Positions 1 to 16,389 of a stretch of 64,000 bases of DNA are shown here, one piece after another. Origin of the DNA: Rubripirellula lacrimiformis (GTDB lineage Bacteria; Planctomycetota; Planctomycetia; Pirellulales; Pirellulaceae). Numbering within the stretch: the first letter of the stretch is position 1; each line of letters starts with the position of its first letter. The DNA is taken from assembly GCF_007741535.1 (NCBI RefSeq), contig NZ_CP036525.1:5146001-5210000 (forward strand), read 5' to 3'. A program made the translations under genes and the position numbers. The notes under the pieces were generated by a model. The model had not been told where the DNA came from. It saw only the letters and a program-made list of their open reading frames with translations, and ran no database searches.

Positions 1-542
1 GCAACTCGGCTGTTGGTCGCCGTGTCACGCAGCACGATCACGGCCGCACGTGTTTGACCATTGGGCAAAAACGGCAGGTACCACATCGACTTTTCAATGT
101 CGGTTGAAACGGACGGATCCGACGACTGGTCAACCGCGACGTAGCTTTGTTGATCGAATTGCACTTCGTCGACCACGATGTCGACGGGAAGTTCCCACGC
201 GTCCACGTCTCGGTCAACTTCGTCGCCAACGTCGGGTGGGGTGTCCGAGAGTTGTTCGGCGACCAAGTCGGTCCATCGTCCGGAATAAACCAGCGGCTGG
301 TCTGCCTGAAACCGCATCAGTCGCGGCTCCCCTTGGACGGCCGCAGTTTGCCGGCAATCGGCGATTTGTCCACGCAATTCACTGGCCGCTTGCTGGACAC
401 TGCTGTCGGCCATCGGACGTCGCAAACTCGGCCATGCGACAGCACCGATCCCAACCATGATCGTCAGCACGATCATGAGTTCCAGCAAAGAAAAACCGGC
501 GTTGCGGGGACGATTCAAAACGCAACGACGCCTATTCGTCAC
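1..542 (-). CDS. Type II secretion pseudopilin, GspH-like (3' end cut by window edge)
   Basis: Minor pseudopilin of a type II secretion or related type IV pilus-like system, exported and processed by prepilin peptidase. The class III prepilin signature is clear: a short basic leader with NRPRNAG, cleavage before FSLLELMIVLTIM, then one hydrophobic helix. The rest has the loose beta-rich look of GspH (SSVQQAASELRGQIADCRQTA, then QADQPLVYSGRW). I place the start at a GTG (complement of 540-542) that overlaps the end of gspG by 11 bases, which implies translational coupling; a TTG eight codons further in is the alternative. The reading frame is still open at base 1, so the C-terminus is missing. 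It is the last visible gene of the minus-strand secretion operon. Whether it is GspH or another minor pseudopilin cannot be settled from this part. Confidence 0.8.
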   Translation of the reverse strand, partial: MTNRRRCVLNRPRNAGFSLLELMIVLTIMVGIGAVAWPSLRRPMADSSVQQAASELRGQIADCRQTAAVQGEPRLMRFQADQPLVYSGRWTDLVAEQLSDTPPDVGDEVDRDVDAWELPVDIVVDEVQFDQQSYVAVDQSSDPSVSTDIEKSMWYLPFLPNGQTRAAVIVLRDTATNSRV

Positions 543-1026
543 TCGAGTCGGATGATTCCGACTCATCTTCGCCCTCGGCAGGCTGGTTTCCAATGTCATC
601 GTCGGTTCCGGCTTGAGAGTCGGGACCTGCCGAGAAGATGCGTGGGAAGGCTGGCTGTGAACTGCTGCTGCCACCTTCGACGGCATCAAATTCGTATTCA
701 AAATCGTTACCCCAGGGGTCTAGCGGCAGCTTGCTGCCGTCGATGTAGGGCCCCGCCCACTTGCGAGCCAACCGCTCGTCATCGGGTGCTTTCAACAAAG
801 CTTCCAATCCATCCTCGGTCGCTGGGAACACCTTCATATCGACCACGTACATTTTCAGCGCGGACGCCAAGTTGCCGATTTGAACCTCGGCGGTACGGAT
901 GTCCGCTTTCTGTTGCGATCCCAACAATCGTGGCCCGACCATCGCGATCAACCCGACCAAAATGATCAACACGATCATCAATTCCAGCAGCGTAAAACCG
1001 CTGCGTTGACGACTTCTACGTTTCAT
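532..1026 (-). CDS. gspG: Major type II secretion pseudopilin GspG
   Basis: Major pseudopilin that assembles the piston-like pseudopilus of the type II secretion system across the inner membrane and periplasm. The 164-residue protein starts with a basic leader and the processing site RSG/FTLLELMIVLIILVGLIAM, with Glu at +5. The GspG core follows: QIGNLASALKMYVVDMKVFPATEDGLEALL, then WAGPYIDGSKLPLDPWGNDFEYEF and FSAGPDSQAGTDDDIGN, which is the conserved calcium-binding C-terminal loop region. The last about 18 residues are an acidic Ser/Asp/Glu tail not usual in proteobacterial GspG. The ATG lies 15 bases after the gspF stop, so the genes are co-transcribed. Identity is secure. Confidence 0.95.
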   Translation of the reverse strand: MKRRSRQRSGFTLLELMIVLIILVGLIAMVGPRLLGSQQKADIRTAEVQIGNLASALKMYVVDMKVFPATEDGLEALLKAPDDERLARKWAGPYIDGSKLPLDPWGNDFEYEFDAVEGGSSSSQPAFPRIFSAGPDSQAGTDDDIGNQPAEGEDESESSDSSDE

Positions 1027-1041
1027 AAGACTTTCTTTCTT

Positions 1042-2262
1042 TTAGTTCACTGTTGAATTTAAATCGAAGACCGGCAGCAGGACGCCCACGATCACGAACA
1101 TGACCATGCTGCCAATCAAAACTAACATCAATGGTTCGATCATCCGAACCATCACTTCCAATTGCCGTTCGACCTTGCCGTCGATGCGGTCGGCGATTTT
1201 GACCAGCACATCGTCCAGCGTATTTGATTCTTCTGCGATGCGAATCATGGCCATGATCTGGGGCGGAATCAATCCGCTAGCGGCCAGCGGTTTCGCCAAC
1301 GTGTCCCCTGTCGTGATGTTTTCGGCCGACTTCAGCATGGCTTGCTGCAGCAGCCGATTGCCGGTCGATTCACTGCTGATTTTCAGCGACTTCAACAGCG
1401 GCACGCCATTGCGAAGCAAGGTCCCCAAGACCCGACACGCGCGAGAAACGGCCGCGTCGTGAAAGATGTCGCCCATCACGGGAATCTTTAGCTTCCAGGT
1501 GTCCCAGTTCGTGCGTCCACTATCGGACGCCAAGTATTTCTTCAAGCCAACCACGATCGCGACCGCCGGAATCGGCAACAGTAATCCATAATTCAGCAGG
1601 GTATGGCTGACGGCCAACAACAGCACCGTGATCATTGGCAGACCCGATCCGGTCGCTTCCAATCGATCAAAAAATGGCTGAAACTTCGGCACTAAAAACA
1701 CCATCATCAACGATGTGATCAGTGTACCGACGACACCCAAGATGATCGGGTACGCCAACGCGCTGACTATTTTCGAACGCATTTCATCTTGTTTGCACAG
1801 GAACACGCTGGTTCGCTGCAGCGACTCTTCCAGAAACGCGCCTTCCTGTCCGGCGCGAACCATACTGAGCGTCAATTCGGAAAAGATCGCGGGCTCGGCC
1901 GCCATCGCTTGATCCAGGGTCGCACCTTCGGCAACGGCATCGTGAATCCGTTTGGCGGCAACCTGCAAGCGCGGGTTGATCGTCACGTCGCCCAAAATCG
2001 ACAGGGCTTCCAACATCGGGACGCCGTTGTTCAACAGGTCCGCAAGCTGCGTACACAGGTCGGCGATCTGTTCTTTTTTGACTCGCTGGGGAAACTGCAA
2101 ATTGTTGACATTTCCCAACGCCGGTTTCACATCCGAAACACTGACGGGATACAACGTTTGTTGGCGCAATCGCTGCATCGCTGCCCGACGCGTTTGAGCC
2201 GCGATGGTGCCGACACGCCGTTTTCCCGTCGCGGTTTTGGCGACATATGCGAAGTCTGGCAT
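1042..2262 (-). CDS. gspF: Type II secretion inner-membrane platform protein GspF
   Basis: Polytopic inner-membrane platform protein that couples the GspE ATPase to pseudopilus assembly. The 406 residues match the family length. The opening MPDFAYVAKTATGKRRVGTI is typical of GspF/PilC. Two homologous T2SF domains (about 70-190 and 272-395) each have the conserved short helix motif (LADLLNNGVPMLEALSIL and LGTLLRNGVPLLKSLKIS). Hydrophobic segments are visible at about 165-190, 217-240 and 375-400. It sits 4 bases after gspE and 15 before gspG, the classical gspE-F-G order. High confidence; the only ambiguity is the general GspF versus PilC naming, settled by the neighbouring gspG and gspD. Confidence 0.95.
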   Translation of the reverse strand: MPDFAYVAKTATGKRRVGTIAAQTRRAAMQRLRQQTLYPVSVSDVKPALGNVNNLQFPQRVKKEQIADLCTQLADLLNNGVPMLEALSILGDVTINPRLQVAAKRIHDAVAEGATLDQAMAAEPAIFSELTLSMVRAGQEGAFLEESLQRTSVFLCKQDEMRSKIVSALAYPIILGVVGTLITSLMMVFLVPKFQPFFDRLEATGSGLPMITVLLLAVSHTLLNYGLLLPIPAVAIVVGLKKYLASDSGRTNWDTWKLKIPVMGDIFHDAAVSRACRVLGTLLRNGVPLLKSLKISSESTGNRLLQQAMLKSAENITTGDTLAKPLAASGLIPPQIMAMIRIAEESNTLDDVLVKIADRIDGKVERQLEVMVRMIEPLMLVLIGSMVMFVIVGVLLPVFDLNSTVN

Positions 2263-2266
2263 GTTT

Positions 2267-3961
2267 TCAGTCCGCCTTGGTAACGCGTAGCACTTCTTCT
2301 ACGGTCGTCAGGCCACTGCATGCTTTTTCCCAACCATCGCTACGCAAAGTTTGCATCCCTGCTTCGATCGCCGCTTTCTTGATCAAATTGGACGCCGCAC
2401 GCTGGGTCGCCAAATCGCGAATCTTGTCGTTCGTGACCAGCAGTTCATAGATTCCCATTCGGCCTCGGTAGCCAGTGCCGCGGCATTGATCACAGCCCTG
2501 TGGCATGTACAGCGGGCCGTCAAGTTTTTCGAGCGGGAAATCTTCTGGAAGGTCGGCAACGTTGGGTTGGTATTCTTGGCGACAGCTAGAGCAAAGGCGA
2601 CGCACCAAACGCTGCGCCATGATGCCCTCGACCGTGCTGGCAACCAAAAACGGCTCGACACCCATGTCGCACAAACGCATGAAGGAACCGGCGGCGTCAT
2701 TGGTGTGCAGCGTGCTGAACACCATGTGACCGGTCAACGAAGCTTGAGTCGCGTTCTCTGCCGTTTCCAAGTCACGAATTTCACCGATCAGCACCACATC
2801 GGGGTCGTGTCGCAGAATCGCTCGCAGGCAAGCCGCAAACGTCAATCCAACCTTCTGTTGGACTTGGATCTGATTGATCCCTTCAAGCTGATACTCGATC
2901 GGGTCTTCGGTCGTGATGATCTTGGTGTCTTCGGATTTGATCTCGTTCAGCGAGCTGTACAGAGTCGTCGTTTTCCCGCTTCCCGTCGGGCCGGTGACCA
3001 ACACGATCCCGTGCGGCATCCGAATCAGTTTTTGATACTTTTGATACGTGTCTTCCGGCATCCCGATGTCACGCAGCGACAAACTCAGGTTCGATTTGTC
3101 CAAAACCCGCATCACGACGCCTTCGCCGTGCAACATCGGGATGATCGAAACCCGCAAGTCGATTTCGCGTCCGGCGACCCGCAATTTGATGCGACCGTCT
3201 TGTGGCACTCGCTTTTCAGCGATGTTCATCTTTGCCATGATCTTCAAACGGCTGACAATCGCCGCTTGGAACTGGTTCATTTCTTGCGGCACGCTCTGAC
3301 GTTGCAAGACACCGTCAATGCGGTAGCGAAGCTTCAATCGATTCTCTTGGGCCTCGATGTGAATATCACTCGCTCGCGTTTCGACTGCTTCGCTAAGGAT
3401 TTCGTTGACCAAGCGAACGACGGATGCCTGAGCAGCCGCTTCGGCGTCCTCGGATCCGTCCAGCTGCAACTCTTCGAGCATCTGGACATCGCCGCTCTGC
3501 TGACGCTGCATCGCGATCAGCCCGTCAATCGTTTCCGCACCCACGCCCAAATTTTGCTTGATCAATTGGCGGACGTTTTCAGGCGGCGCGACGACCGGAC
3601 GGACCTCCAGCGACAAAGCGCTGGCGATCGTGTCGAAGGCGCCGAACGCGAACGGGTTGCTGACGGCCAACCGAATCCAGCTGTCGCTCTTTTCAAGCGG
3701 GAAGACTTCGTAGCGGTGAATCATCTTCAGCGGGAAGCCGTCCAACGCCGACGGATCCACTTCGACATCTTCCGTATCAAGCCATTCCAAGCCCATCACG
3801 CGAGCGGTTTCGGCTAACAGCGCGACGTCGCTATCAAAGTCCCACTGCATCGCCAAACTGCCCAATTGGCTGCGATCCCGCAGCGAATCGGCGACCTGCC
3901 GAAGTTGCAGTGCTGTCAGGGCTGGGGCGATTCCATCTACTTGCGTAATCATGGCTTGCAT
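2267..3961 (-). CDS. gspE: Type II secretion ATPase GspE
   Basis: Cytoplasmic hexameric ATPase that powers pseudopilus extension. Seen in order: an N1E-like domain (LLAETARVMGLEWLD), the N2E region with SDIHIEAQ and LKLRYRIDGVL, Walker A GPTGSGKTTTLYSS, the Asp box, Walker B DPDVVLIGEIRDLETAENA, the His box STLHTNDAAG, and a tetracysteine zinc module (CSSC...CDQCRGTGYRGR) that separates GspE/PilB from PilT. The open frame extends to a TTG at 4114, but the extra about 50 residues look non-coding in composition, so I prefer the ATG codons at 3961 or 3952 (564 or 561 residues). The stop lies 4 bases before gspF. The next gene upstream, the giant module protein, ends 4332, so gspE is probably part of the same minus-strand unit or has its own promoter in 3962-4331. 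Confidence 0.93.
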   Translation of the reverse strand: MQAMITQVDGIAPALTALQLRQVADSLRDRSQLGSLAMQWDFDSDVALLAETARVMGLEWLDTEDVEVDPSALDGFPLKMIHRYEVFPLEKSDSWIRLAVSNPFAFGAFDTIASALSLEVRPVVAPPENVRQLIKQNLGVGAETIDGLIAMQRQQSGDVQMLEELQLDGSEDAEAAAQASVVRLVNEILSEAVETRASDIHIEAQENRLKLRYRIDGVLQRQSVPQEMNQFQAAIVSRLKIMAKMNIAEKRVPQDGRIKLRVAGREIDLRVSIIPMLHGEGVVMRVLDKSNLSLSLRDIGMPEDTYQKYQKLIRMPHGIVLVTGPTGSGKTTTLYSSLNEIKSEDTKIITTEDPIEYQLEGINQIQVQQKVGLTFAACLRAILRHDPDVVLIGEIRDLETAENATQASLTGHMVFSTLHTNDAAGSFMRLCDMGVEPFLVASTVEGIMAQRLVRRLCSSCRQEYQPNVADLPEDFPLEKLDGPLYMPQGCDQCRGTGYRGRMGIYELLVTNDKIRDLATQRAASNLIKKAAIEAGMQTLRSDGWEKACSGLTTVEEVLRVTKAD

Positions 3962-4331
3962 CGCTTTGGTGAGGGCCAAAAACCTGCATCCAGCGAATTC
4001 GGACGCTGCAAAGTCACCGTCGCCGAGGTCGACGCGAGCAGGGCTCACGAAAACAGCAGTGGGGACTGAGCAAGCCTCGTTCGCCGAGACGCTGCTATGC
4101 CGCCGATCAACCAACCGACTGTGAATTCACGTTGCGTGATTTCACCGCCTGCTAATCTGACGACTGCCTTTGGCTTCGTTGGGGGTGGGATCGGGGACCA
4201 AATGACGACCTTGTCATTGGCGTGTCCCGACTGATTTAGGTGGGTATCAGCTTTAAATTGTAGTGAAATCGGCTGACTGAGTCAAAGTGTGTCTGTTAGG
4301 CACCGTCGGCAAGTGAGCCGAAATCTGACCG

Positions 4332-7300
4332 TTAGCGGCCTCTGCCACTGCGGCTGCTGCGTGTGAATTGCCGTAAAACCTGCTCCATTTGCTCTGCATT
4401 GATCGTTTGCAGTGGAATAATCCTCATTCTGCCTGATCGATTGCTAACTGCCTGCTGATCGACTTGTTTGACAAAATCACGGATTTCTTCGGACAGTTCG
4501 GGGGGGGCTCGCATCACGATCGAATTGCTGATGTCATCGGCGCTCAGGGTCAACAGCGGCCCCGACGTTTCGGCATTGATCTGTTCCAACATCGATGCCA
4601 CTTCCGCAGAAACCCCTTCCGGAATCGATATCTGTGGCCGATTGCGGCCTCGTGATAGTTGGCTGCTGTACACCGTCCGCAGCATGCTCTCCACACGCTG
4701 CACGTCCGTGTTCACGATCGGAATGATCTGCGGCGTTGCCAACTGCAACGAATCGATGAATTCACGCGAATCGAGAACCGCCAACAGGTCCTCGATCACG
4801 CCTCGGGTCGCCCGTGAACTCTGGACGATCAAGGCATTGATACGCGTGTCAGCGACGATCCGAGTTTGCGACATGTCGCTGGTCAGCCGCGATCGAGCAC
4901 TTGCACGGCTTTCCTGAAACAGATCCGTCAGCAAATCTTCCAAATCCTCGGCATTTCCATGTTTCAGCACATAGATCGACAGATTGCCGCTTTCGGCGAC
5001 CGCTGTCATCGGTGGGTTGACAGCGACTTCTAACAACTTTGCCAGCATATCGACGGCCTCGGCATCTTCCGACGCGATGACCCATTGGCCGTCGCCCGGC
5101 AAAATCAACACCGCGGGGCTGTCGTGGGTGCCAGGCTTCGCGGCCTCGATTTGCCCCCCGGTGACTTCGGTGGTGACCAGTTCAACAGCCGACTCGGCGA
5201 CCGATTCATTGGGGCGGGCGATCCCACGCAGGTCCGCGGATGCTGAATTCTGGGTCGGAATCGACTTTGCACCATCGCCGGCGTCGGTATCGCCTGGCTC
5301 CGGAGCGGCTTGTTCAGTATCGGGGTCGGTCGAACGGATCACCTGCAGCGGGTTTTGGCGAAGATTGGGCCAGACCCGCCGTAGCTGTTCCAGCAGCGAA
5401 TCGGAATCTCGGCCAACCGAGACGGTTCGCACACGAGAGCCTGAGCCCGAGATTCCAGCGGAACCTTGGCCGGTACTGCTATCGGCCTGCACAGATTCAC
5501 CAAGGCGACCGAGTAAGGTTCGAATCTCACCAAGCTGCTGCGTTGTCGCTCGGATTAACAATTGCTGACGATCTTGGTCGACCGTGATCGCCGGGACTTC
5601 ATTGGTTGGCAGATCCGCAAACAGCGAATTGACCGCATCACGCGCCGAATTGGGATCGTTCTCGCGAAGCGGAAAGATCGCCAGTTCACGTTCGGGCGGA
5701 TCAAACTGCTGCAGCGTTTCTTCGACCAGATTCAATTGTTCTTCGGTTCCAATGACCACCAGCTGTTCGTTGTAAAAGTCGTAGCGAACATCGACGGTGG
5801 GGCGGGCATCGGCGAACAAGCTTTCCACGGCGTCGGCCACATCATCCCCATCGATTCCCGCAAGCGAGAAAGCTTTCAAGCGGCGATCACGGGTCAGGGG
5901 ATCGACGCGATCCATCTGCTGGATCACTTGCTTGGCGATTTCTTGTTCACGTGGCAATCCAACGACGAACACGGTTCCGCTCTCGTCGTCGGCACTGACA
6001 CCCACGGTCGATCGGCGACCGAAAGCTTGCTGCAGTGCATCGACAACGGTTTGGGGATTTGCGTTGGCCAACGCGTACGCATGCAAATCGGTGGATCGCG
6101 CCGGGGCATCGTTGATCTGTTGAACCAGGACCGCGATCTCTTTTTGTTCTTCCGCAGACGCAGAAACGATCAGAGTGTCGTTGACCGAATCGGCACCGAT
6201 CGTCGCTTGCGGGAACGTCGCCTGCAGAGCCAGACGCAGTGTCGCAGCGTTGCCATTTTCAAGTGCATAGCTCTGTGTGGTCTGCTGCCCGCCGACGTTC
6301 ATCTGTTCGACAAACGCCTGGATCATCTGTTGGTCTTCTTCGCTTGCCGATACGATCAGACTGTTGCTGCGGGAATCGGACGAAATAGTTGCGTTGGGGA
6401 AACTAGCTTGCAAGGCCAAGCGGACGGCCGTCGAATTGCCCGTCTCCAAAACGTAGTTCTGGGTGACTTTCTTCCCATCGGCGTTCATCGACTGGATCAC
6501 CTCGGCGATCTTTTCATGATCCGATTCGCTAGCCGCAACAATCAGATGGTTGCTGGTGGAATCGGCAGAAATGGTTGATCGGGGAAAACTGGACTGCAAC
6601 GCCGAACGGGTGATCGTGGCACGACCATTTTCCAACACATAACTTTTGGTCAGCTTCGTTTCGCCCGCGTTCAGCGAATCAAATAGTTTTGCAATTTCGA
6701 CATGCTCGGCATCAGTCGCCGAGATGATCAACCGGTTGTTGAGCGTGTCTGCGGCAATTTTGGCACGGGGAAAGGATCCTTGGATCGCGAGGGACAGAGA
6801 ATATGTCGTGCCTTCGTCCAACCCGTAACTTTTGGACGTCCGCTGCTTGGTCGGATCCGATTCCATGCTGTCAATCGCTGCGGAGATGCGTTCCAGAATT
6901 GCTTTGGGTGCGGTCACGATCAACCGATTGCCGATCCGGTCTGGCGTGACACGAGCCGTCGGTGCCATTTGCGTGACGGCGAGTGAAAGCGAAGTCGCGT
7001 CGGCATCGCCCAAGACGAACACCTTGGTTTCCGCATCGTCCATCTGCCGGTCATCGTATTGCTGGATGAACGCTTTGATCGTTTCGTGGTCCTCGGCGGT
7101 GCCGGTTGCAGCGACCGTTTTCCCAACCGTATCGGCGGCAAAGACAACTTTTGGCAGAAGAGTTGTCAGCACTCGCACCGCACCGGTCGGGTCGCCGAAA
7201 TCCAGCGGATAGACCTGCGACGTAGTCGCCTCTGGCTCGGGAACCTGTTCCTGCAACTGTTCCAACCAAGCCGCGTATTTGGCGTGTTCGGTCGCCGACG

Positions 7301-10300
7301 CCACCAACAGAATTCGTTCGGGGTCGCCGCTCGGCAACAACCTGGCACGCGGCACTTCGGTGGAAACCCCGGTGACGGCTTGCTGTGTCAAATCTTTGCG
7401 AATGGGATAGACATGCAGTTCACGCTGGCCCGCTTGAGCAAACACTTTTTCGAGTTCTTCGATGGTCTGCGAGATTCCCGCGTGTTCCTGTTCGGTAGCC
7501 GCGATCACCAAACGATTGGTTCCGGCACCACTCAGAATTTTTGCAGCGGGATGACGCTCGGTTAAGAAAGTTTGGAATGCGGTGGGATCGGCACGATCCA
7601 GCTCGAATGCCTGCACTTTCGTTTCGGGCGCCGGCCCGGTCTGGTCCAACAGTTTTCCCAGCAACGCCGTGACTCTTTCGTGATCTTCGGGCGACGCCAG
7701 AATCATCACCTGGTTGGGATCGGCAGCCCCGGTCACAACGATCGTCGCACTGGGGACGGTGGTAGCCAAGACACTGGCGAACGCCGTGCGAATCTGTGCG
7801 GTGGTGTCGTACAGACGTGGTTCCAGATTCGATCCTTCTTTATCGGCCCTGGACGTTTTCTCTAAGACTTCCGCAATCTTCCCCTGCATCTCTTTGGACG
7901 CCAGAACAGTCAATTGCCCGTTGGCGGTGTCCGCACCGATGGTGGCGGCGGGAAACAGCGACATCAGCACCAATCGAGTGATCGCCACCTTTGCGGGGGT
8001 GACCTGATAGACCTCGATTTCCCGGCGACCTTCGGCCGTGACAGTTAGCTGCTCGATCGCCGCAGCAACACGTTCGTGTTGGTCGTCACTTGCCCACACG
8101 ACAATTGCTCGATTGACAACGTCCGTGCTGATGATCGCTTGTGGCGCAATTTGATTCAGCACCGCTGGCAAGGTCGTCAAATCGCCGATCGGAATACTAT
8201 AGGTTTCCACCCGCATCTCTTCGCCGCTGCCCGACATATTGAGTCGTTCGATCGACAGGCGGAACGATTCATGGTCGTCGGCATTGCCAGAGGCCACGAT
8301 CCGGTTGCTTTTGACATCCACCGTCAGTTTCATCCGCGGCCACAGCGATTGCAGCGTGGGCAGCATGGTCGCGGCTTGCAATTCGTTGAGCTCGTAAGCA
8401 CGAATTTCTTCGCTGGCGAACTTGGACGCGGGTCGATCGACCTCGTTGATCAGCGTTTTGATCCGGCCATGATGAGCCAGAGTCGCCGTGACCACCAACT
8501 GCTGACGACGATCATCAGCGATGACAGTCGCACCATCGATGGCTTGATCGATCAGCAACTTGACATCCGACGCTTGGGCCTCGGCCAGACTGTACGCCAG
8601 CAAGATCAGTTCTTGATCGACCGGCATCGGCTTGCCAAGTTCCTGCACAAACTGATCGATTTTCTGGTGCGCATCCTCGGTTGCCATGATCATCAATCGC
8701 CGACCTGCGGTGTCGACCGTGATGGCACCGATCGGGGTAAATGTGCCACGGCTTCCCGCAGCGGTGGCGGATGCAATCACCGGTGCCAACAAGGTTTGCA
8801 GCTCGGTCGGTGTGCGATCTTCGCTGTGATAACTCTTGAGCACCAATTCCGGGTTTGCAGGCAGTTCGTCCGAGATCTGCGTCAACAGTTCGGAAATCTT
8901 GCCGTGCGTGTCTCGTTCGGCCCATACGGTCAGCTGGCCCGAAGCAGCATCGGCGGTAACTCGGACTCCGGGGAAGCGGATTGCCAACAGTTCACTGAAC
9001 AGTGACGGGTCGCGTTTTTCGAGATCGTAGATTTTCGGCCACTGCAGCATCGTTTGGGGCGTTGCCTTTCGGATCTGTGCGACGACTTCGGCCAAACGTG
9101 CTTGGTGTTCTTGGGTAGCCCACACCAACAACTCGGATGAACCATCTTCGCCGGCCGGACGAACGATCGGTTGGACACCGGGAAGCTGTTCGGCAAGGAT
9201 GGGCAGGAACTCTTGCCAACGGGCCAGTTCAGTCGCCGACAATTCATAAGTCTGCAGCACGCGATCGGGTGGACTTGGCAATGCGGTCAGCAATTGTGGC
9301 AGCATCCCTTCCAGTCTGGCTTTCTCTTCGCCGCTGCCCAGCAAGATCAGCTGCTGGGCTTCGGTGCCCAACCAAACCTGTGCTCGCGGCACGACTTTGG
9401 TGACGGTCGCCAGCCATTCGACGGATCCCGGCCGAGGCAACTCGAACGCGTGCAGAAGGACGCCGCTTTCCAGGTCCGCCCCACGCCAACGCTGGATCAC
9501 CTGATCGGCCAAAGCGATGTCTTGGTCACTGCCATGCACGACAACCGTTCCCAGCGAACGATTTCCGACGACTTGGGCTGTCGGAATCATCGTCTGCAGC
9601 GCCGTGGAGATGACGGTGGACTGCACCGGGTCGACCTGAAACGCTTTGACTTTCATGTCCGACTTGGTCGCGGTAATGCCCATCGCGGTGAAAGCGTCGG
9701 CAATACGACTCTGTTCGTCCGGCGAAGCGGTGACCATCACTTGGGCCGCGACAGTGTCGACACTGACCGTTGCCCGCGGTGCGATTGCGGTGACTTGCTC
9801 GCGAATCTGTTCTTCACTTCCGCTGCGAAGCGGATAGGCAACCGAAACATTCGCCGGCGCCGCCTCGATTTCGGCTCGCATCTTTTCGACGGCGGTCTGG
9901 ATCGCAGTTTGCTGCGTAGGAATCACGAAAGCGGTCAGCAGCCGCGTTTTCTCGTCGACTGCGATGCGATCGCTACCGACCAATTCTTTCATTTTGTCCA
10001 ACACGACGGTCGGATCAAGTTCACCCAGTGCATAGGCGGCAAAGACGGGTGCGGGTGGTTTTTCGGGCTTGTCCGGTTTCGGAACCGCTCGTGGTTCGGG
10101 CACCGTGTTGATCAATACATTGATCGTATCCATTTTGCCGGCCGTCTCGACAACCAACAGTTGCTTGCTTTTCGGTAGGGCGATCGCACGACCAAACGAA
10201 CCAAGGTACGGCTGAACCTCTTGGATGACCGCGTCGACCGGGCGGTTGCCGAGCGAGAACAGAACGCTGACCAATTCAAATCTGCCGCGACTTGGCAATT

Positions 10301-11084
10301 CTTCCAGCGGTACGCGTGGAATCAAATCGATGGGGATCGAATTGGATAGCTGCAATACCGTCAGCATCTTTTCGCGACGGACCAACGTGTAGCTGCGAGT
10401 CAGCAGCACGCTGTTCAGCAGATCGATTGCCTCCGATGCGTTGTAGGACCGCGTGTCTGTGTAGGTGAACGTGCCGGGGGGCACTTGGTTCATCACCAAC
10501 GTCAGACCTTCTTGACGTGCGAACCAATCCAACACCTCGCCCCAAGGCTGTTCGCGAAATTGAAATCGCAGTTCACTGGTCGGACCGCTGGTGGTCCACT
10601 TTTTAAATTGGTCGGCATTCAACGTGTCGCGAATTTTTCGGTCGATCGCGATCAGCTTCTGATTCTTGTCCGCGGCATCGGATGAAACGTTGATCTCGGT
10701 CCGCTGTGCCAGCAGACTTTGAATCTTAGCGCGTTGGACGTCGCCAAGCCCGAGTTCGTCAGCGACGTCGGGGTGAACCAGACGACTGACTTGGGCAAGC
10801 GGAAACGGGCTTTGCAACGGATCGGAGGATTCGGTTTGGACAGCCACCACTGGCGCAGCGGCCACTGGTTCCTTTGCCACCGGTTCTTCCGTTACCGGTT
10901 CGGCCGCCACCGGTGTATCCGTCGCGGGTTCTGCCGGAAGCGGCGCTGCAACCTGCGCAGGTTCAGCCGCTGGCGTATCCGCGGCAGCAGACGTTTTGGC
11001 GGGAGGTTCGGCTGAGGCGGAATGCAGAGGTGCACAAAGCGACAGCAGAAAGACTAGATGAATCAAGTCTCGGGGAGGCAGCAT
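4332..11084 (-). CDS. Giant secreted protein of about 27 tandem secretin N-type modules
   Basis: 2250 residues, predicted periplasmic. Order: signal peptide (about 1-25, LIHLVFLLSLCAPLHSASA), an Ala/Pro/Glu-rich segment (26-90), a helical domain with LGLGDVQRAKIQSLL (100-165), an STN-like domain (171-250), then about 27 modules of 60-85 residues to the C-terminus. Each module has the secretin N1-type beta-alpha-beta-beta-alpha pattern: an opening Y/F strand, a helix ending in P-A, an ADTxxNxLIVxA strand pair, and a helix starting EDHExI. One module (about 1800-1960) is split by a Ser/Asp/Glu-rich insert. No secretin barrel follows. The ATG at 11084 puts the signal peptide first; the longer frame begins with a TTG at 11156 and adds non-signal sequence. 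It lies between gspE and the divergent gspD, so a structural role in the secretion channel is inferred. The family is not one I can name. Confidence 0.85.
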   Translation of the reverse strand: MLPPRDLIHLVFLLSLCAPLHSASAEPPAKTSAAADTPAAEPAQVAAPLPAEPATDTPVAAEPVTEEPVAKEPVAAAPVVAVQTESSDPLQSPFPLAQVSRLVHPDVADELGLGDVQRAKIQSLLAQRTEINVSSDAADKNQKLIAIDRKIRDTLNADQFKKWTTSGPTSELRFQFREQPWGEVLDWFARQEGLTLVMNQVPPGTFTYTDTRSYNASEAIDLLNSVLLTRSYTLVRREKMLTVLQLSNSIPIDLIPRVPLEELPSRGRFELVSVLFSLGNRPVDAVIQEVQPYLGSFGRAIALPKSKQLLVVETAGKMDTINVLINTVPEPRAVPKPDKPEKPPAPVFAAYALGELDPTVVLDKMKELVGSDRIAVDEKTRLLTAFVIPTQQTAIQTAVEKMRAEIEAAPANVSVAYPLRSGSEEQIREQVTAIAPRATVSVDTVAAQVMVTASPDEQSRIADAFTAMGITATKSDMKVKAFQVDPVQSTVISTALQTMIPTAQVVGNRSLGTVVVHGSDQDIALADQVIQRWRGADLESGVLLHAFELPRPGSVEWLATVTKVVPRAQVWLGTEAQQLILLGSGEEKARLEGMLPQLLTALPSPPDRVLQTYELSATELARWQEFLPILAEQLPGVQPIVRPAGEDGSSELLVWATQEHQARLAEVVAQIRKATPQTMLQWPKIYDLEKRDPSLFSELLAIRFPGVRVTADAASGQLTVWAERDTHGKISELLTQISDELPANPELVLKSYHSEDRTPTELQTLLAPVIASATAAGSRGTFTPIGAITVDTAGRRLMIMATEDAHQKIDQFVQELGKPMPVDQELILLAYSLAEAQASDVKLLIDQAIDGATVIADDRRQQLVVTATLAHHGRIKTLINEVDRPASKFASEEIRAYELNELQAATMLPTLQSLWPRMKLTVDVKSNRIVASGNADDHESFRLSIERLNMSGSGEEMRVETYSIPIGDLTTLPAVLNQIAPQAIISTDVVNRAIVVWASDDQHERVAAAIEQLTVTAEGRREIEVYQVTPAKVAITRLVLMSLFPAATIGADTANGQLTVLASKEMQGKIAEVLEKTSRADKEGSNLEPRLYDTTAQIRTAFASVLATTVPSATIVVTGAADPNQVMILASPEDHERVTALLGKLLDQTGPAPETKVQAFELDRADPTAFQTFLTERHPAAKILSGAGTNRLVIAATEQEHAGISQTIEELEKVFAQAGQRELHVYPIRKDLTQQAVTGVSTEVPRARLLPSGDPERILLVASATEHAKYAAWLEQLQEQVPEPEATTSQVYPLDFGDPTGAVRVLTTLLPKVVFAADTVGKTVAATGTAEDHETIKAFIQQYDDRQMDDAETKVFVLGDADATSLSLAVTQMAPTARVTPDRIGNRLIVTAPKAILERISAAIDSMESDPTKQRTSKSYGLDEGTTYSLSLAIQGSFPRAKIAADTLNNRLIISATDAEHVEIAKLFDSLNAGETKLTKSYVLENGRATITRSALQSSFPRSTISADSTSNHLIVAASESDHEKIAEVIQSMNADGKKVTQNYVLETGNSTAVRLALQASFPNATISSDSRSNSLIVSASEEDQQMIQAFVEQMNVGGQQTTQSYALENGNAATLRLALQATFPQATIGADSVNDTLIVSASAEEQKEIAVLVQQINDAPARSTDLHAYALANANPQTVVDALQQAFGRRSTVGVSADDESGTVFVVGLPREQEIAKQVIQQMDRVDPLTRDRRLKAFSLAGIDGDDVADAVESLFADARPTVDVRYDFYNEQLVVIGTEEQLNLVEETLQQFDPPERELAIFPLRENDPNSARDAVNSLFADLPTNEVPAITVDQDRQQLLIRATTQQLGEIRTLLGRLGESVQADSSTGQGSAGISGSGSRVRTVSVGRDSDSLLEQLRRVWPNLRQNPLQVIRSTDPDTEQAAPEPGDTDAGDGAKSIPTQNSASADLRGIARPNESVAESAVELVTTEVTGGQIEAAKPGTHDSPAVLILPGDGQWVIASEDAEAVDMLAKLLEVAVNPPMTAVAESGNLSIYVLKHGNAEDLEDLLTDLFQESRASARSRLTSDMSQTRIVADTRINALIVQSSRATRGVIEDLLAVLDSREFIDSLQLATPQIIPIVNTDVQRVESMLRTVYSSQLSRGRNRPQISIPEGVSAEVASMLEQINAETSGPLLTLSADDISNSIVMRAPPELSEEIRDFVKQVDQQAVSNRSGRMRIIPLQTINAEQMEQVLRQFTRSSRSGRGR
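6110..6839 (-). repeat. Four near-identical 61-codon modules inside the giant protein
   Basis: Within the giant gene, four consecutive modules are much more alike than the others. They open with KSYGLDEG, KSYVLENG, QNYVLETG and QSYALENG and share SFPxAxIxADSxxNxLIVSASExD. The other modules only share the fold pattern. This points to recent in-frame tandem duplication. Confidence 0.85.
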
Positions 11085-14500: not shown

Positions 14501-15355
14501 CAAGTCGGCCAACGCGTCCCTCGGATCACCGGTTCTACGATCACACAGATTGGCCAACAAAACACGATCACGATGGAGAACGTCGGATTGATCCTGGGCG
14601 TGACGCCAAGAATCAGCCCCGAAGGCAACGTGACGATGGAGATCGACGCCGAGAAATCCGAAGTCGGTCCGGAATCGGAAGGCATCCCCGTTTCGGCCAC
14701 CGCCGACGGTACCGTCGTGCGAAGCCCAAGAGTCAACGTGGCCAGTGCCCAAGCAACCGTGAGCGCCGCCGATGGCGAGACCATCGTGCTGGGCGGACTG
14801 ATTTCGACCAAACAAAAGCAATTGCATCGCAAAGTGCCTTGGTTGGGCGACATTCCGATTGTGAAACACCTGTTCCGTTACGATTCAGTTTCGAACACGC
14901 GAGCCGAACTGTTGATCATTCTGACACCCCATATCGTGCGATCCGAAGCCGACATGGAAAGGCTGAAGCAGACCGAGATGGCTCGAATGAGCTGGTGTGC
15001 GTGCGACGTATTCGATCTGCACGGGGAAATCATTGGCCAACCGATGATGGATTCGCTGCTATCGGATCCTGGCCAAGTCGACGGCGTCGAAGTGATCTAT
15101 CCGTACGATGACCCACGTGGTCAGCGTGCTTGGGATCCATCCGACAATCCAACCTTGCACGACCTTCCGATCGGAAACGAAAGCGTCATGGAAGTAGCAC
15201 CGAACGATTTCACGTGGCCCGAATCAACGATGGCACCTAAGAATGGCGTGACACCCGATTTCCCCTTTCCAAGTGAATCGACGATGCTGCCGGGCAGTGT
15301 TCCATCTAGCAATCCTGATGTCCCCACCGGCTCTGGTATCAGGGGGAATTTGTAA
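11585..15355 (+). CDS. gspD: Type II secretion outer-membrane secretin GspD, N-extended
   Basis: Outer-membrane secretin forming the exit channel. 1256 residues, nearly twice the usual GspD. A signal peptide (HALVALMASLCVVDSVAQG) is followed by about eight N-type modules (roughly 35-815) where canonical GspD has N0-N3; clear ones include NLFRLKYASAAAVQQTVTTLF, VFEIRNGLAADVAETL, IFPIQNGDAASLIQTL and IVYQLKNSPAVDVALAI, each with a TNSLIV or SNSIIA strand. Low-complexity Asn/Pro linkers occur at about 120-160 and 330-370. The secretin barrel region (about 817-1125) has VMIQVLIAEVALNN, VLSRPQILTLDNQSAFIQVG, VGLILGVTPRISPEGNV, VSAADGETIVLGGLIS and VPWLGDIPIVKHLF. About 130 residues follow the barrel. 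The stop codon overlaps the start of the next gene (TAATG). Confidence 0.93.
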   Translation: MSKVRQKLIHALVALMASLCVVDSVAQGDETAETISYVTRHRSAAEIEQVFAPLVANSPEAKIRLGTQNDRISVAGPPWVHDLFQQVLQRVDVAKTNSSSSPDWIAEPANSGRPNRAAVTVPPTRMPSTDTSNASRSASTHSRARTSGVSATTTPPNRAANVETTRRLMPLPTGQSQVIRDELLRLFGQRLTTTSPTGGQAPTGQWLLATPSGTLKIAFDLDRDDVLVDGPASTVDQFGRLLSALVGRYQRQPTSLTGQPQQRVLMLQPEVQADVQQMLRSTRRNNHAHPHSDGASADDPNARLLFRLTGLRQDAAEVTEELPAPPGSPARGNDDQNNGDQNNNAAANPTNRAANPRTESPSLPQLEGVEVQTLPDLDAIILRGRDQDLDQLAEIIREMELLSRQTQPAIEVIHLEHTQSQSITELIEETQTSLLGTRQGRATVTPLGKPNAILLLGWGDAVVALKDLISKLDQPVPPESQFNLFRLKYASAAAVQQTVTTLFANRQGGLTPTIQATIDTRTNSLIVHAAPRDMQEVARLVERLDTLDGGTVQRTRVFEIRNGLAADVAETLRETISTAGTNARPSAMELMLDGMGRGETILSGILDNVQITVDARKNSLIVTSPAENFEVIEALIDKLDSPGMVAKIKIFPIQNGDAASLIQTLRSLLPSQAGADPVTSAQLSSSPGESSLAPLRFTVDVRSNSIIATGSDGDLKIVDALLMRLDEADAMQRQNIVYQLKNSPAVDVALAINEFLRNTRQVENASPATLNPFAQLEKEVVVVPEPVSNKLIVSATPRYFNEIRTMIEKLDEQPPQVMIQVLIAEVALNNTDEFGVELGIQDSVLFDRSLLGDLLTVTSTTNVTSPGGAVTSTTQQNVVSATNDPGFGFNSVDPLGNSGSSQALANAGDVGGQGLSNFALGRSNAELGFGGLVLSASSQNVSALLRALEESRRLDVLSRPQILTLDNQSAFIQVGQRVPRITGSTITQIGQQNTITMENVGLILGVTPRISPEGNVTMEIDAEKSEVGPESEGIPVSATADGTVVRSPRVNVASAQATVSAADGETIVLGGLISTKQKQLHRKVPWLGDIPIVKHLFRYDSVSNTRAELLIILTPHIVRSEADMERLKQTEMARMSWCACDVFDLHGEIIGQPMMDSLLSDPGQVDGVEVIYPYDDPRGQRAWDPSDNPTLHDLPIGNESVMEVAPNDFTWPESTMAPKNGVTPDFPFPSESTMLPGSVPSSNPDVPTGSGIRGNL

Positions 15356-16389
15356 TGATCAAGCACCCAATTCTAAATCGGTCGATCGCGTTGGCGACCC
15401 TGTTGAGCGCTTTGACCGGATCCATCGGCTGCCAATTTGTTCCTGACCGGCCGTCATGGTCGACCAAGCTGTTCGAAAAGGAAGAAGTCGCCGTCGTTCC
15501 TACTCGCATGATGGTGATGTGGGCCGACACGATCTTGCACCAACCGCAACAACCCGGCGTACGCGGATTCGGCGGCCGAATCTATTTTTACAACGGACAA
15601 GATGCCGACCCCGTGAAGGTCGATGGTGGGTTGGCGGTCTATGCTTTCGATGCGAACGACCTAACCCCCCAATCGACCAAGCCAAAACGCAAGTTTGTGT
15701 TCACGGCCGATCAATTCGCCGAACACATGAGCCAGACGTCGATGGGGACCTCGTACAGCGTGTGGTGCCCTTGGGACGAAGTCGGTGGCTACAACGAACA
15801 GCTCAGTTTGATCGTTCGCTTTGAAGGACGAGGCGGCGGCGTTGTCATCTCCGACTCGACCGTCAAACTACTACCAGGCATGAACCGACCCGCAGAGGTT
15901 GTGGAAGCGGAAAGCCGTGAATATCAGGCAGTGACGCAGGCATCGGTTTCCGGCGATACCACTTCGGCACCTCAATTGGCCGCGTTCAACAAGAACGCAT
16001 TGCCCAAATCCGCGATACCACCGCGCCGTCAAACGCAAACGATTGACCTGCCACCCAGCTTCTACCGTCACCTAAGCGGACCGGCCGACCCATTGCTGGA
16101 AACGACGATTCCGTTAGCCCCTAGCTCGGCCGAATCGGGTTCAACGGATGCTTTGACAACCGATTCGGCACCCGCCGAGGAAACGCAATCCTACCTTCGA
16201 CAGCCGTATCCGTTTCGGACACTCGGCGACGAACAATTGGACGCTGCCCCACACGGGACACGTCAACAGTCGCTGCCAGCGGGATGGATCCAATCGTTGC
16301 CGAAAACACCTCGGTACGGCTATTCGCTTGGCCAACGCAGCAGTTCCCTTCACCAACCGGCGGCGGCCCCCACGGCGGACACCCCTTAG
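15355..16389 (+). CDS. Secretin-linked lipoprotein, unknown function
   Basis: 344 residues with a lipoprotein signal: basic start, hydrophobic ALATLLSALTGS, then lipobox SIGC. The next 150 residues form a compact domain (VVPTRMMVMWADTILHQP, GFGGRIYFYNGQD, VDGGLAVYAFDAND) with a beta-rich look; the rest is Pro/Ser/Thr-rich and probably disordered. The ATG overlaps the gspD stop by one base and is preceded by AGGGGG at good spacing, so it is translationally coupled to the secretin. I do not recognise the family. Its place suggests a pilotin-like or channel-associated role, which is inference only; small pilotins of the GspS/PulS type look quite different. Confidence 0.75.
   Translation: MIKHPILNRSIALATLLSALTGSIGCQFVPDRPSWSTKLFEKEEVAVVPTRMMVMWADTILHQPQQPGVRGFGGRIYFYNGQDADPVKVDGGLAVYAFDANDLTPQSTKPKRKFVFTADQFAEHMSQTSMGTSYSVWCPWDEVGGYNEQLSLIVRFEGRGGGVVISDSTVKLLPGMNRPAEVVEAESREYQAVTQASVSGDTTSAPQLAAFNKNALPKSAIPPRRQTQTIDLPPSFYRHLSGPADPLLETTIPLAPSSAESGSTDALTTDSAPAEETQSYLRQPYPFRTLGDEQLDAAPHGTRQQSLPAGWIQSLPKTPRYGYSLGQRSSSLHQPAAAPTADTP

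Follow-up and report, generated by a model that had tools for sequence, protein, structure and literature searches.

A giant barrel-less secretin N-module protein in a planctomycete type II secretion operon, a candidate half of a split secretin

The closest described relatives of the protein reported here are the secretins of the type II secretion system (T2SS), GspD (XcpQ, PulD, and others). They share with it an N0 domain followed by Secretin_N modules of β-α-β-β-α fold, and they gave its best matches in both sequence and predicted fold. The giant protein differs from them in having no barrel, in carrying 27 modules instead of three, and in not sharing its chain with the barrel. GspC is described as connecting the platform to N0 of GspD (PMC8134430). 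A module array lengthened beyond the usual, as in the giant, is described for PilQ of Thermus thermophilus, where N0–N5 form six rings 350 Å long that cover most of a wide periplasm; in 2017, it was counted among the largest characterised secretin systems (PMC5745081). In PilQ, however, the six rings and the barrel lie in one chain and belong to a type IV pilus system. In the mitochondrial T2SS, GspDN1–GspDN3 carry Secretin_N modules off the barrel chain, GspDN2 and GspDN3 being half N-domains, and a yeast two-hybrid assay indicated that GspD and GspDN1 may interact (PMC8134430). Each of these eukaryotic proteins has at most one module and lacks both N0 and a GspC partner. With 27 modules and an N0, the giant is not a protein of the GspDN type (single or half module, no N0), although the half-module at its end recalls GspDN2 and GspDN3. 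The planctomycete periplasm is described as variable and at times greatly enlarged, and crateriform structures as press-stud-like links between the membranes (PMC5394234). A full-text literature search that covered no preprints and few subscription papers gave no account of giant or split planctomycete secretins, and the word 'secretin' was absent from papers on huge proteins in a term search.

Architecture of the giant gene and its operon

The window is a stretch of 64,000 nucleotides from Rubripirellula lacrimiformis. On its minus strand, a single open frame runs from an ATG at 11084 to a stop codon at 4332–4334 and encodes 2,250 amino acids. Its parts are as follows.

4332–11084, minus strand: giant barrel-less protein of N0 and N-type modules, 2,250 aa, stop codon included in the coordinates
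11010–11084, minus strand: signal-peptide-like N-terminus, residues 1–25 (by eye)
10584–10775, minus strand: helical segment ahead of N0, residues 104–167, LTXXQ-like in some homologues
10347–10571, minus strand: N0 domain, residues 172–246 (profiles, AlphaFold model and its structure matches)
10101–10283, minus strand: N1, first N-type module, residues 268–328 (PF03958 at E = 0.024 on the segment; predicted fold)
5502–10043, minus strand: 23 tandem N-type modules, residues 348–1861 (module HMM; spacing mostly 61–79 aa)
5019–5435, minus strand: N-type module interrupted by a long linker, residues 1884–2022 (by eye)
4773–4982, minus strand: N-type module in the better conserved C-terminal region, residues 2035–2104 (module HMM)
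4461–4730, minus strand: last full N-type module, residues 2119–2208 (module HMM)
4365–4430, minus strand: C-terminal half-module, strand and helix only (by eye, from the ends of 26 giants)
4335–4364, minus strand: short Ser/Arg/Gly-rich tail after the half-module

Pfam found Secretin_N (PF03958) in 18 stretches of the giant (E = 1.2e-110) and no secretin barrel (PF00263) at E ≤ 1, and the eight barrel places in the genome exclude this gene. The NCBI model of GspD, TIGR02517, matched nine stretches with 235 bits, below its cut-off of 351.35. An iterated module HMM built in this analysis recognised 25 modules; together with N1 and the interrupted module, both assigned by eye, the total is 27. 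The earlier note had read a signal peptide, about 27 secretin N-type modules, and no channel domain from the sequence, and this content was confirmed, the signal start being placed by eye. PF07813 (LTXXQ, Spy/CpxP-like) recognised the helical segment in 13 of the 32 family members, at E = 1.2e-4 in the best case. A half N-module of strand and helix ends the 26 giants compared and could be a docking piece.

The N-terminal domain, called 'STN-like' in the earlier note, was present, and its exact identity was found to be N0 of the GspD/PilQ type. PF21305 matched it weakly in 27 of 32 aligned homologues (best 3e-4; E = 0.12 for that of the window), and the profile of the giant family matched N0 of PilQ among solved structures (E = 0.0015). 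In an AlphaFold model of residues 165–765 (mean pLDDT 82, pTM 0.32), a β-α-β-β-α-β-β domain was followed by β-α-β-β-α modules. The solved structure that best matched this model was N0-N1-N2 of XcpQ (E 3e-8); the TM-scores were low (0.12 by query and 0.32 by target) because the domain order agrees but the relative placement differs. The giant thus has the N-terminal N0 of a T2SS secretin GspD, with the Pfam part of the evidence being weak; our N0 tests have lower sensitivity to proteobacterial N0. Pfam, profile, and structure searches all placed the modules in secretin N families, and a non-secretin module family was rejected on the PF03958 match, the PilQ N0 profile match, and the XcpQ structure match.

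The T2SS setting described in the earlier note held and extends further: the giant heads gspE, gspF, and gspG, which are followed past the window by H, I, J, K, L, and M, and gspD lies divergently alongside.

2267–4114, minus strand: gspE (TIGR02533, E = 2e-187, 623.7 bits, just under the cut-off of 630.25)
1042–2262, minus strand: gspF (PF00482 over its cut-off; TIGR02120, E = 1e-97, below its cut-off)
532–1026, minus strand: gspG, major pseudopilin (PF08334, E = 8e-26; TIGR01710 over its cut-off)
3–701, minus strand: gspH-like gene, continuing past the window; then I, J, K, L, and GspM-HR in locus L001
11585–15355, plus strand: gspD, about eight N-type modules and the barrel PF00263 at residues 947–1119, N0 not detected
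15355–16389, plus strand: lipoprotein-like gene after gspD, candidate pilotin (lipobox by eye)

The giant is therefore encoded together with gspD, E, F, and G as well as other genes for pseudopilins and the platform, as expected of a T2SS component. GspD of the window passed TIGR02517 (364.7 bits against 351.35), and its barrel matched PF00263 at E = 1.6e-45. H, I, J, K, L, and GspM were named from order, size, and homology: gspK matched NF037980 (E = 3e-10) and gspJ matched PF11612 (E = 1.6e-5), both below cut-off, and family-model searches gave no match for gspL, GspM, or the lipoprotein-like gene. Homologues of this last gene also adjoin gspD in several relatives and some of the single-chain giant secretins described below. 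A small protein directly after GspM (L001:3399–4067) showed a weak BON match, and its homologue adjoins gspD in several relatives.

N0 and the barrel on separate chains

We next compared N0 of the giant with the barrel proteins. An HMM of the N0 of the giant family matched 113 barrel-less frames at E < 1e-5 among the fetched loci and none of 22 barrel frames. Four of the latter are other secretins (L006, L007, L008, and L130), one is a 280-aa fragment without an N-terminus (L162), and four repeat loci already counted (L128, L143, L147, and L157); the remaining 13 are distinct GspD-type genes whose N-terminus is present. At E ≤ 10, PF21305 had no match in any of seven GspDs; on its own, this model tests poorly for N0, as two GspDs that the N0 HMM does match escaped it. 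In a profile-profile comparison, N0 and the N-termini of the 13 GspDs gave a probability of 0.1%, whereas the probability was 99% (E = 4e-17) for the positive control, two GspDs of a different family within the class. The first N-type module begins at residue 37 in GspD of the window and near the start (residues 33–66) in seven of the 13 GspDs, this one included; in the other six, the first confident module lies further in, and one of these, L064, has a frame that continues upstream. That N0 is merely undetected in GspD was rejected, as all three tests (Pfam, N0 HMM, and profile-profile with its positive control) were negative. The sequences thus show N0 on the giant and none detectable on GspD, which places N0 and the barrel on separate chains.

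A fused counterpart was found elsewhere in the phylum. A search of 59 genomes brought up two long frames that match N0, one of 4,754 aa and one of 5,073 aa, the start of the latter appearing too far upstream. In their class, 45 of 81 genomes matched at E ≤ 1e-8, and 21 list a frame of 2,200 aa or more; 18 of these frames were examined (G163, G173, and G230 being left out). All 18, of 2,381–6,152 aa, comprised N0, 21–62 module matches (E < 1), and a C-terminal barrel. The longest, at L228:1444–19899, runs unclosed to the border of the retrieved sequence; it has about 6,150 aa (6,169 aa in the genome search), gave 62 module matches, and includes a barrel. In one chain of 4,623 aa, Pfam found 47 Secretin_N stretches and PF00263 at 4380–4545. 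Like the giant of the window, these proteins combine N0 with a long array of N modules; unlike it, they carry the barrel on the same chain, and their N0s form a group of their own in the N0 tree (99/99; some branches are long and the bootstrap has not settled). The tree did not recover the order of split and expansion. A gspK-, gspL-, gspM-, or lipoprotein-like gene lay near the single-chain giant in six of 16 loci. When modules were mapped onto the 18 single chains, module 8 of the window's GspD best matched the last module in 17, module 7 the second-last in seven, and module 6 the third-last in ten; the C-terminal module of the giant at 4773–4982 best matched the sixth or seventh from last in nine. 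GspD modules 1–3 and most modules of the giant found no place in this mapping.

The operon also encodes a possible partner of N0. In the model of the 317-aa GspM (pLDDT 87), a long helix at the N-terminus is followed by a core like that of PilO, and a small β domain lies at the C-terminus; a PilO model was its sole Foldseek match at E ≤ 0.001. The C-terminal domain compared with the GspC HR domain of 3oss_C, from the GspC–GspD complex, gave TMt 0.74 over 66 columns, an rmsd of 2.6, E = 0.017, and a Foldseek probability of 1.00. Sequence profiles gave no match between GspM and GspC, so the HR assignment rests on the predicted fold. On this model, the operon's GspM would carry at its C-terminal end an HR domain resembling that of GspC, which is known to partner N0.

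Because N0 is carried by the giant and missing from GspD, and because array and barrel are fused elsewhere, we propose that the T2SS secretin is split and hyper-elongated here, connecting the inner-membrane platform to the outer-membrane channel, and that the giant is probably its inner-membrane-proximal half. Its N0 would dock on the GspC-like HR domain at the end of the PilO-like GspM at the inner membrane, and its 27 N modules would reach outward through the periplasm. The conserved C-terminal modules and the half-module would then join the N modules of the N0-less GspD, which has the outer-membrane barrel, so that the giant and GspD together may bridge platform and channel over a wide periplasm. 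The earlier note had suggested a free scaffold, a guide filament, or a decoration of the secretin; none of these is the best reading of a protein that bears the N0 absent from GspD and that has fused single-chain counterparts. The array could take the form of stacked rings or of a flexible tether, and both were considered. If the 27 modules were stacked, they would reach about 70–110 nm, as estimated from the 350 Å of the six rings of Thermus PilQ (about 3–4 nm per ring).

Variation, linkage, and rival readings

Complete homologous frames of 1,588–3,749 aa were found in 24 other fetched loci. The median identity between the window's giant and these homologues was 48% in N0-N1, 41% in the C-terminal 320 residues, and 26–29% in the middle. 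The number of modules ranged from 15 to 47 across the 25 complete frames, and L065 has 60 in a frame open at both ends. By HMM, the window's giant has 25 modules and its two nearest relatives have 31 and 34; with module number differing among near relatives, a fixed molecular ruler is disfavoured. In seven of 31 chains, module pairs were 90–100% identical, mostly one to four places apart, and such near-identity of neighbouring modules indicated recent tandem growth. The highest identity between two modules of the window's giant was only 56%. The 95th percentile of identity was 54.5, 65.8, 50.9, and 50.0 at spacings of 2, 4, 6, and 8, and 44.2, 45.0, 40.0, 39.6, and 43.3 at spacings of 1, 3, 5, 7, and 9. 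This hints at a two-module repeat unit, with a signal driven by few proteins. The giant of G079 (L068:3010–9490) is spread over three overlapping frames, by assembly error or decay.

Such freely varying module numbers would also suit a flexible multivalent tether, which would make the same two-ended link without rings: modules strung like beads would act as a leash where the width of the periplasm varies. The near-identical module pairs are consistent with it, as is a monomer model that settles the modules and leaves their mutual placement open. On the other hand, the single-chain homologues bear their array on the barrel, and the N modules of known secretins are described as forming rings (PMC5745081, PMC5646246). 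We regard the tether as possible, though not favoured.

The earlier note had named occurrence independent of T2SS genes as a refuting result; in 100 genomes of the family, the giant was found to follow one T2SS type. GspL is a poor marker of T2SS type because a second T2SS type is present in most genomes, and GspM-HR, which falls into two types separated by score, was used instead. Type 1 and the giant occurred together in 35 genomes, the giant only in two, type 1 only in two, and neither in 61 (Fisher p = 4e-22, with kinship ignored and many genomes related in pairs). The cut-offs (GspM E ≤ 2.8e-49; middle region of the giant E < 1e-25) were chosen after the scores were seen, and G015 was left out because its frame has only 979 aa. 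The two giants without type 1 are in G024, where GspM is just below the cut-off, and G074, where gspL is cut off by the contig end; type 1 without a giant was seen in G039 and G052, whose genomes are 82% and 78% complete. G003 is also just below the GspM cut-off; it lacks the giant region, which G024 has. The 32 giant loci (the window and L039–L069) include several from related genome pairs, and 25 of them have room downstream. gspE lies directly next to the giant in 19 of the 25, and gspD adjoins it in three more (L050, L057, and L063). In the remaining three (L045, L058, and L059), the giant adjoins neither, and the operon lies elsewhere in the same genomes. These counts showed that the giant belongs to one T2SS type, as judged from the genome sequences.

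The conserved genetic link and the lack of a barrel would also fit a scaffold or guide in the periplasm that works for the T2SS but lies outside the secretin, for example as a pseudopilus sleeve or wall anchor, and the three loci in which the giant is beside neither gspE nor gspD lean the same way. Such a role is unlikely for a protein that holds the N0 missing from GspD and that has fused forms.

A duplicated N-terminal part of GspD might have taken a new job outside the T2SS, for example in binding partners at the surface or in the periplasm. A precedent exists in another family of the class, where GspD has both N0 and barrel and a short separate barrel-less N0 protein occurs in addition; because that GspD keeps its own N0, an N0 protein on a chain of its own does not act as a substitute in every case. 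The genome analysed here (8.5 Mb, one contig) encodes four barrel-less N0 proteins, the giant and one each in L003, L004, and L005, and none of its eight barrel places lies within the latter three. The N0 protein of L004 has 1,025 aa and is followed by its own gspE and gspF (L004:4686–11049); a short form like it is present in most genomes of the family, and the genes of the second T2SS are scattered across L004, L216, and L002. No T2SS gene was recognised beside the proteins of L003 (947 aa, 5611–8454) and L005 (1,042 aa, 5333–8461). Ahead of the L004 genes, the ORF list shows what look like many copies of a short repeat holding three overlapping frames open (L004:2025–2755). For the giant itself, the tight co-occurrence with one T2SS type and a partner GspD without N0 make such a new job quite improbable.

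That the giant gene is an open frame by chance, or a misassembly caused by repeats, was ruled out by the homologous frames in many loci, 24 of them complete, and by the modest identity among its own modules, even though assemblies may miscount modules in some relatives, where these are 96–100% identical.

Implications for the planctomycete cell envelope

The split secretin remains our preferred explanation, and an enlarged periplasm to be spanned by its array is plausible. A more far-reaching version, which we offer as speculation and consider doubtful, is that stacks of 30–60 rings (perhaps 70–200 nm), built either from a single polypeptide as long as about 6,150 aa or from a split pair, form the longest secretin conduits known, carry the pseudopilus or cargo across the periplasm, and may form the core of crateriform links. 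If the proposed reading is true, with 27–62 modules per array and with N0 and barrel borne by different chains, the reach of a T2SS would be an evolvable trait, and its channel could have an inner end and an outer end made by separate polypeptides. Genes of the giant type would then be concrete candidates for export over the enlarged planctomycete periplasm and for the crateriform links between its membranes.
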